Assembly (NCBI GenBank): GCA_014584465.1
Contig: JACTMU010000063.1
Coordinates: 1-41,348, forward strand
Origin: Pseudomonadota bacterium
GTDB taxonomy: Bacteria; Bdellovibrionota; Bdellovibrionia; Bdellovibrionales; JACTMU01
Direction: 5' to 3'
Length of the DNA: 41,348 bases
Both the position numbers and the translations under genes were made by a program. Positions 4,595 through 7,012 of the stretch are shown piece by piece. The number at the start of each line of letters is the position of its first letter. Within the stretch, counting starts at the first letter, position 1. The notes under the pieces were generated by a model that saw only the letters and a program-made list of their open reading frames with translations, had not been told where the DNA came from and did no database searches.

Positions 4595-5098
4595 ATGGCC
4601 AAGCTCCAGTTTAGGGAATCTTACTTAGGAAAGCTTCGCACTTTAGTTGGATCTCAGACTCTGATCGTTCCTGGTTTTAGAATTCTCATTGAAGACGGAC
4701 AGAATAGATTTCTCTTGATCAAACGATCCGACAATGGACTGTGGGGATTTCCTGCTGGCTCCCCGGAGCTTGGTGAATCTCTCGAAGAGTGTGTTCGGCG
4801 CGAAGTTTATGAAGAAACCGGTTTGAGAGTAGAACAATTCGATTGCTTCGGATTCGCATCAAATCCTTTGCGCGAATCACATACGTACCGTAACGGCGAT
4901 CGAGTCCAATATTTCACGTCGTTGCTTGTAAGTCGCAGGTGGGAAGGTCAACCTCGCCTGAATGATGGCGAAGCCACCGAAGTCCGGTTCATGAGTGAAC
5001 ATGATTTTCCTCCTTCAAATCAAATTCTTTCACATGAGTTTTCCTCGGTCGCACTCTACAGAGAGTTTCAATCCACTGAACGTTTTCAATGGGCTTGA
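4595..5098 (+). CDS. NUDIX hydrolase
   Basis: A 167-residue NUDIX pyrophosphohydrolase, which cleaves nucleoside diphosphates linked to another group and needs Mg2+. The Nudix box is perfect: GX5EX7REVXEEXGL at residues 55-77, with the metal-binding glutamates in REVYEE. The preceding strand LLIKRSDNGLWGFPAG is typical. TAGGA lies five to six bases before ATG 4595. Its last 21 codons fall inside a 258-bp block that is duplicated at 922-1179. Substrate cannot be told from the sequence; house-cleaning of damaged nucleotides or nucleotide-sugar hydrolysis are both possible. Confidence 0.9.
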   Translation: MAKLQFRESYLGKLRTLVGSQTLIVPGFRILIEDGQNRFLLIKRSDNGLWGFPAGSPELGESLEECVRREVYEETGLRVEQFDCFGFASNPLRESHTYRNGDRVQYFTSLLVSRRWEGQPRLNDGEATEVRFMSEHDFPPSNQILSHEFSSVALYREFQSTERFQWA

Positions 5099-5290
5099 AA
5101 GTTGAATCTTCGTTCGAAGACCGCTTGTTTGAATCGAAAATTCAAATGTAGATAGGGGTGACTCTTTTCCACAATCTGTAGATCGCGCTGTCAGTTGTGC
5201 CAAGTTCCTTCTGCCGGTTACGGCAGCTTCAAGACAATTTCCTACCATTATGACTTGGTGCGCCCAGCATTCGGAACCTGGCACCTGCAC
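5033..5290. repeat. Dispersed duplication, copy B (source copy)
   Basis: This is the partner of 922-1179. Because it contains the 3' end of the intact NUDIX gene plus about 190 bp of downstream sequence, it is the likely parent and 922-1179 the derived copy. Thirteen scattered mismatches imply that the event is not recent. Confidence 0.9.
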
Positions 5291-5297
5291 TCCGCAC

Positions 5298-5588
5298 TTA
5301 AAAACGACGTTTCTTCCATTCATCGAGCTGTTGTCTAATCTTGGATTCAACTTGATGAATTGCCGCTACGGGACTGTTGCATACCGCTTCAGCGACAAAT
5401 ACACCCGCTTGCGATGCAATCCTGCAGGAAGCCTCCACAACATCGCCTCCCTTTTTCATTGCAACCTTCATAAATGAATCACTCGGCGCAAGACTCTGCA
5501 CGCGATCAGCAGCTGAATTTATGAATCTTTTCGCTTCGTATTCTGGGTCAAATCCAATAAATTCAAAATTTATATTGTGGTTCAGCAT
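5298..5588 (-). CDS. HPF/RaiA-like ribosome hibernation factor
   Basis: A 96-residue protein preceded by a very strong Shine-Dalgarno site (GAGGAGGGG, six bases before ATG 5588). The pattern fits the short HPF/RaiA (S30AE) fold: strand, helix (EAKRFINSAADRVQSL), two strands (VVEASCRIAS, GVFVAEAVCN), then a C-terminal helix with the typical AAIHQVESKIRQQLDEWKKRR and basic tail. These factors bind the 30S decoding centre and silence ribosomes in stationary phase or stress. It is divergent, so the assignment comes from the fold pattern, not clear motif identity. Position beside an Hsp20 gene on the same strand supports a stress role. Confidence 0.6.
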   Translation of the reverse strand: MLNHNINFEFIGFDPEYEAKRFINSAADRVQSLAPSDSFMKVAMKKGGDVVEASCRIASQAGVFVAEAVCNSPVAAIHQVESKIRQQLDEWKKRRF

Positions 5589-5957
5589 AAAGCCCCTCCT
5601 CTAGTTCTGGTTTCGAATTTCGTGGGTACGCAATCGCTCTTCGGACACTACAAATTATCACTAATTCGGATTGGCTAGCTGAACTTGTTTGGTGGGATAC
5701 CCGTCGATCTCACTTTGCACCTCCTTTAATACGTTTCAGGGCACGATTTATATAAAGAAGTTACAAGTTTTTTGTTCCTGCCCTGTTGTTATTCTTATTC
5801 TGGGTCGAGTGGACAAAATGTCAAGTGCCATTGCCTTAAAAACTGGACCATTAAAAAATTCTACGGATTTTCAAATATTTAGAGCGAAGCAAAAAAGATT
5901 GGCCGTTTCATTACAAAACAGCCATCTTGCTTTGCTTCATTTGAAGAGGACTGATCA
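5589..5957. other. Leader region of the HPF-like gene
   Basis: On the minus strand there is TTGACA (rc of 5815-5820) with a weak AGAATA 17 bp on, then an excellent Shine-Dalgarno AAAGGAGGTG followed by a GTG that opens only a 13-codon frame (5675-5713) before TAG. The same AAAGGAGGTGCA string precedes the gene at 7013. It may be a leader peptide or the start of a deleted gene. A plus-strand open frame over this area is judged spurious. Confidence 0.35.
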
Positions 5958-6125
5958 AGAGATTTTTACATCATTGGTCTCTTTGATGTCATCCCTTTTG
6001 GACCTCAAAAGTTTGCTAAGAAATCCACTCTGACCCGTGTGAATTTGAATAGTACGCCCTTTGGCAGTCTCGGTCTTTGGAAGGACCACTTTCAAGACAC
6101 CATCTTCATATTGAGTCAAAAAATG
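5958..6125 (-). pseudogene. C-terminal remnant of a second hsp20 gene
   Basis: Immediately after the TGA of the intact hsp20 gene, in the same frame, the sequence goes on coding for YEDGVLKVVLPK and then GRTIQI, the hallmark end of a canonical alpha-crystallin domain with its C-terminal I-x-I motif. It runs to a TGA at 5955-5957. The intact gene already has its own equivalent beta-strand (EKDKIVLKFLK), so this is not simply a premature stop. The best reading is a tandem hsp20 pair collapsed by deletion, leaving the tail of the second gene. Stop-codon readthrough giving a longer protein is a less likely alternative. Confidence 0.6.
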
Positions 6126-6791
6126 TCAAGCCTTCACCTTAAGAAACTTCAGCACGATTTTGTCCTTTTCTGGAAGCATCTCCATCTTATTAGGATCGAC
6201 GTACTCTGGGATTGGAAATGTTCTATTGAAGGTCGATTTAAGGTAACTCTCTCCATTTGAGTTATCGCCATCGCTCTCATCAACAGATCCAGTCTTCTGC
6301 TCTTGTGTGCCTGTAATAGTTAGGTATCCATTTTCAACCCTGGTACTGATCGAGGTGGATTTCACTTTATCAATTTGAATATCGTAGTAGATGTAATCAT
6401 CATCTTCTCTTTTTGAAATCTCATTTATTGACCCACCACCAAACTTATTAGTGACCCATGAGTCAAACGGGTTCGTAATAGAAGGCGAGTGACTTTCGAA
6501 CTCCTTCATACGTTTCTCCATCTGCTCTCTCATCTGTTTCATTTCTGCCAATGGATCAGCCCGACCAAAAAGTTCCTCATTAAATAGGTCATTAAAATGG
6601 TGATATATTCCATTCTGTTCCTTGATCATGTTGTCGTAAACTTGGCCCCGGCTTTCGCCTTGCTTGTTGGAGGTCGAGCTATCGAGGTTTGATCTCAGCT
6701 CTGGACTTATCTTAAGGGCAGCTACCACCGCGATCCCCCCGATGACTGCGCTTACAGACGGAATAACCATGTTCTTTAGATATGGTTTCAT
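6126..6791 (-). CDS. Membrane-anchored Hsp20/alpha-crystallin small heat shock protein
   Basis: A 221-residue small heat shock protein, an ATP-independent holdase. The N-terminus (residues 1-30) has a basic start and a hydrophobic stretch (MVIPSVSAVIGGIAVVAAL) that looks like an uncleaved signal anchor, so the chaperone domain probably sits in the periplasm; ordinary Hsp20 proteins are cytosolic. A Met/Glu-rich coiled segment (about 75-95) precedes the alpha-crystallin domain (about 120-221: DDDYIYYDIQIDKV, GYLTITGTQEQ, FNRTFPIPEYVDPNKMEM). AAGGAGGAATT directly precedes ATG 6791. It ends without the usual I-x-I tail, which appears in frame beyond the stop. Confidence 0.88.
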   Translation of the reverse strand: MKPYLKNMVIPSVSAVIGGIAVVAALKISPELRSNLDSSTSNKQGESRGQVYDNMIKEQNGIYHHFNDLFNEELFGRADPLAEMKQMREQMEKRMKEFESHSPSITNPFDSWVTNKFGGGSINEISKREDDDYIYYDIQIDKVKSTSISTRVENGYLTITGTQEQKTGSVDESDGDNSNGESYLKSTFNRTFPIPEYVDPNKMEMLPEKDKIVLKFLKVKA

Positions 6792-6827: not shown

Positions 6828-6856
6828 TAAATTGTGCCCTCACTTTACAATGTCAA
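6828..6856 (-). promoter_or_regulatory. Probable promoter of hsp20
   Basis: On the minus strand, TTGACA (6856-6851) is followed after 17 bp by AATTTA (6833-6828), about 37 bp before the hsp20 start codon. The -35 is a perfect sigma-70 hexamer and the -10 is a partial match. I see no CIRCE element. Confidence 0.45.
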
Positions 6857-7012
6857 GTTTCCTACTTCAGAACATCAAATCGTCAATGGATTTTGAAATG
6901 TTGTTTATCTGAACTTGACAAAATGGAAGCAAAAAACACTTTTGTAATAGTTGACATATTATCCGTTTAGGATTCGGAGCTATAGGCTTCGCGTTTTGAA
7001 AGGAGGTGCATT

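Follow-up and report, generated by a model that had tools for sequence, protein, structure and literature searches.

A truncated second hsp20 gene, very probably a deletion remnant, lies in frame behind an intact hsp20 gene in a Bdellovibrionales genome

The window analyzed here, a 41,348-nt stretch of contig JACTMU010000063.1, carries the 3' end of a second, different hsp20 gene (hsp20-B) directly behind an intact one (hsp20-A). We conclude that this piece is very probably an ordinary pseudogene remnant, a second hsp20 truncated by partial deletion that falls in the frame of hsp20-A by chance. The hsp20-A protein ends in ...KIVLKFLKVKA at a TGA (6126-6128, minus strand), past which the frame stays open for 56 codons (5958-6125, minus strand), reads HFLTQYEDGVLKVVLPKTETAKGRTIQIHTGQSGFLSKLLRSKRDDIKETNDVKIS and reaches a stop at 5955-5957. 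The original prediction had described this stretch as a second alpha-crystallin tail in frame after the hsp20 stop, and it indeed encodes an Hsp20 C-terminus with the I-x-I motif that was pointed out there (GRTIQI). The features of the locus are listed in the table.

Features of the hsp20 locus in the window
Feature	Position	Strand	Basis
hsp20-A, alpha-crystallin-like, intact, 221 aa	6126..6791	(-)	ORF; end-to-end alignment with 7 relatives sharing the end point
Putative junction scar CTTGACATTTTTTGA, overlapping the A stop	6116..6130	(-)	By-eye comparison of five A-B spacers and upstream regions; inference
hsp20-B remnant, final ~51 codons plus stop	5955..6115	(-)	Identity to L003 B; B-family profile match
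Intrinsic-terminator-like hairpin and T run	5900..5924	(-)	Scan; fold of 5870-5945
S30AE (HPF-like) ribosomal gene	5298..5588	(-)	PF02482, E 2.3e-6; synteny with L003 and L005

A search of the window's genome with the B protein of a relative recovered the remnant at E 3.7e-15, with 59% identity over B residues 124-182 and on the minus strand; judged by this alignment, the match is far beyond chance. Compared with the B protein of L003, a locus from a Bdellovibrionales MAG (L043), the remnant is 67% identical across the last 51 residues and shares the final residue, and a B-family profile matched it at E 2.6e-20 within the loci searched. C-terminal homology, the place behind A and a conserved downstream gene thus mark it as a truncated hsp20-B orthologue. 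The Pfam HSP20 profile (PF00011) aligned to the remnant only at positions 75-102 (E 0.0052, 17.3 bits against a curated cut-off of 20.8), and a complete alpha-crystallin domain of about 100 profile positions was not found in it. The same profile aligned to hsp20-A at positions 4-72 (20.0 bits against 20.8) and matched the L003 orthologue of A with 26.3 bits. Side by side, the two matches look like a single split domain, yet by sequence the stretch repeats the last-strand part instead of completing it, because hsp20-A has its own last strand (KIVLKFLK) past its Pfam-aligned portion, in agreement with what had been read from the upstream gene.

The end of hsp20-A appears native. Searching 140 genomes of the order at E<=1e-15 gave 10 A matches in 9 genomes, including the window's own, and in all nine other A proteins the C-terminal end point is the same within a few residues; by this comparison the TGA lies at the native end of the family. 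The A protein also has an N-terminal hydrophobic segment by eye. Near the C-terminus, the window protein has FLK where the nine others have a conserved FPK. In a search of genome contigs, A alone recovered no relative, and an alignment of A proteins recovered 16 loci; two distant ones (L055 and L056) encode proteins that extend ~20 residues beyond the FPK motif, with extensions unlike B by eye. Far from Bdellovibrionota, anammox planctomycetes (Scalindua/Brocadiaceae; L048, L050-L054) have A-like Hsp20 proteins that break off in the same abrupt way. One of these, a Candidatus Scalindua rubra contig, carries a 30-residue Hsp20 C-terminal fragment (L054 2034-2123) ~650 nt before the A-like gene, perhaps a similar, independent loss.

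The original prediction had proposed looking in relatives for two tandem hsp20 genes, and had named a single gene with no homologous sequence downstream as the finding that would speak against it. Five of the eight other genomes (L003, L018, L019, L005 and L023) do not show this: in them an intact B lies directly downstream of A on the same strand, has 178-186 codons, starts 78-124 nt past the A stop and is preceded by its own ribosome-binding site (AGGAGG). B was not found directly behind A within the sequence stretches covered in the remaining three (L020, L004 and L022), nor behind the second A copy of one genome (L021 in G096); in L022, B is located ~650 nt off on the other side of A, on the same strand. 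A B search of the 140 genomes (E<=1e-40) gave 19 matches in 18 genomes, and among the best 11 of these 19 (L024-L034), A is directly upstream in 5 and absent upstream in 6. No other full B was found in the window's genome by protein search with B; it contains two distant hsp20 paralogues of 154 and 149 aa (41% and 40% identity, contigs C45 and C93).

The A and B stops lie 171 nt apart in the window and 618-672 nt apart in the five tandem relatives, indicating that about 450-500 nt are missing. Our model is that an ancestor carried A and B as two different hsp20 genes in tandem, with the S30AE gene after B, and that a deletion of this size would have removed most of the A-B spacer together with the ribosome-binding site, start and first ~130 codons of B. 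What would have been left behind the A stop is the end of B with its stop codon, in the frame of A through a one-in-three coincidence. Tandem collapse, put forward earlier as the likely cause, therefore stands as far as the tandem arrangement goes, the stretch being the 3' end of a second gene that relatives keep intact. However, exact matches between B and A plus spacer do not exceed 12 nt in any of the five tandem relatives, which argues for deletion of the front of B and not for a merger of two like copies. All other genomes listed for comparison are from the same order and none from the same genus or family, so the deletion can be dated no more closely.

The putative scar (6130-6116) sits between the KVK codons of A and B codon ~130. 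It appears to resemble two pieces of the promoter-like CTTGACA...ACATTTTTT element of the relatives, with the TGA of A inside its CTTGACA. The TGA may thus be the old stop of A or may have been supplied by this element; the length of A would be native either way. By eye, such an element, CTTGAC(A/G) followed ~13-17 nt on by a CACATTTTTT-like sequence, is present in the window at 6830-6857 (minus strand), and recurs upstream of A and within most of the A-B spacers (L003, L018, L019, L005 and L023). It is possibly a heat-shock promoter.

Downstream, the S30AE protein is 54% identical to that of L003 (3162-3536) and 46% identical to that of L005 (2545-2889), both encoded behind B. The terminator-like hairpin begins ~30 nt past the remnant stop, and its region folds strongly (-28.3 kcal/mol, z -5.7); no such hairpin was found behind B in the scanned stretches of L003 and L005. 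Because it comes after the remnant (5924-5900), the remnant is probably within the A transcript. Translation of A would then end at its own TGA, as it does in relatives, and the remnant would most likely be transcribed as the 3' untranslated region of A. Elsewhere in the window, a direct repeat of 264 nt (922-1185 and 5033-5296, 94% identical) occurs in full nowhere else in the genome; its second copy overlaps a NUDIX gene (4595-5098) at that gene's 3' end, and one end of the repeat matches 19 further short places in the genome, mostly of about 25-40 nt and REP-like.

The remnant shows no visible decay. It differs from L003 B at 8, 7 and 29 sites in the first, second and third codon positions, and its mean pN of 0.226 falls within the range of nine intact B tails (0.171-0.257), in a comparison in which synonymous sites are saturated. 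Fisher tests on codon positions found no excess relative to two intact pairs (p 1.0 and 0.47). The remnant departs at 3 of the 14 columns that do not vary among the other nine B tails, while intact tails depart at 0 to 4, and its stop codon is still in place. This coding-like pattern suggests that the loss was recent or, less likely, that the piece is still used or constrained.

Readthrough of the TGA, which would give A a 57-residue extension bearing the I-x-I motif, draws on the open frame and on an extension that retains both GRTIQI and a coding-like pattern. The original prediction had seen in it a source of a proper oligomerisation tail, but this finds no support: all nine other A proteins of the order stop at the same place, and a structure model of A extended through the TGA (mean pLDDT 59.5, weak overall) closes the A domain with its own last strand at 211-218 and gives the added part block means of only 41-60. 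Nor did we find an in-frame extension conserved in relatives, as expected of programmed readthrough; in five of them the homologous tail forms part of a separate gene that has its own start. Folding of the RNA around and downstream of the TGA is no stronger than that of shuffled sequences (z +1.2), and no tRNA-Sec (RF01852) exceeded the cut-off in the window's genome (best 43.5 bits versus 47). We therefore regard readthrough as highly improbable. A selenoprotein made by UGA recoding was likewise given low odds, as no tRNA-Sec passed the cut-off.

Separate translation by termination-reinitiation at a TTG (6117-6119), six bases past the A stop, would yield a 54-residue peptide. The ORF (5955-6119) exists, lies in the likely A transcript ahead of the terminator and is coding-like, but the start is weak, the AGGAGG site of the relatives' B is lost, the peptide would lack nearly all of the alpha-crystallin domain, and none of the A and B loci examined has such a short gene immediately after A; this reading is scarcely more than nominal. 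Equally hard to credit is a misjoined contig in an organism with an intact B. The genome is a draft of 120 contigs and the remnant looks undecayed, but the join is internal to one contig, the exact matches noted above are too short for the usual k-mer collapse, and no loose 5' part of B was found elsewhere in the genome. A further reading, co-option, holds that low-level TGA readthrough or TTG reinitiation equips an Hsp20 family with an oligomerisation tail that it natively lacks. It would account for the constraint still apparent in the remnant, and the coding-like pattern, the sole result of this kind, keeps it alive; we consider it very unlikely.

Taken together, the interpretation as a deletion remnant removes one candidate for stop-codon readthrough and points to a two-gene small heat shock protein locus that seems to have been simplified recently in a lineage of Bdellovibrionales. 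Were the tail in use, the locus would capture a protein in the act of acquiring a domain through deletion. We found no literature on this A-B locus by title. Pseudogene remnants formed by partial deletion in bacteria are 3' fragments of once intact genes, without a start and with intact orthologues in relatives. The startless 3' fragment of B, whose orthologues in relatives are intact genes in the corresponding position, resembles them, but unlike the usual remnant it happens to share the frame of the preceding gene. IbpA and IbpB are encoded by adjacent genes, and one partner has been lost in one family. Two papers describe them as a pair of diverged bacterial small heat shock proteins, with later simplification to one protein in some lineages (PMC6834283, PMC10708888). 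The locus in the window is similar in having two diverged small heat shock protein genes and a simplification to one. It differs in that A, an Hsp20 from Bdellovibrionales, is atypical, having a hydrophobic N-terminal segment but lacking an I-x-I tail, and in that a piece of B persists.
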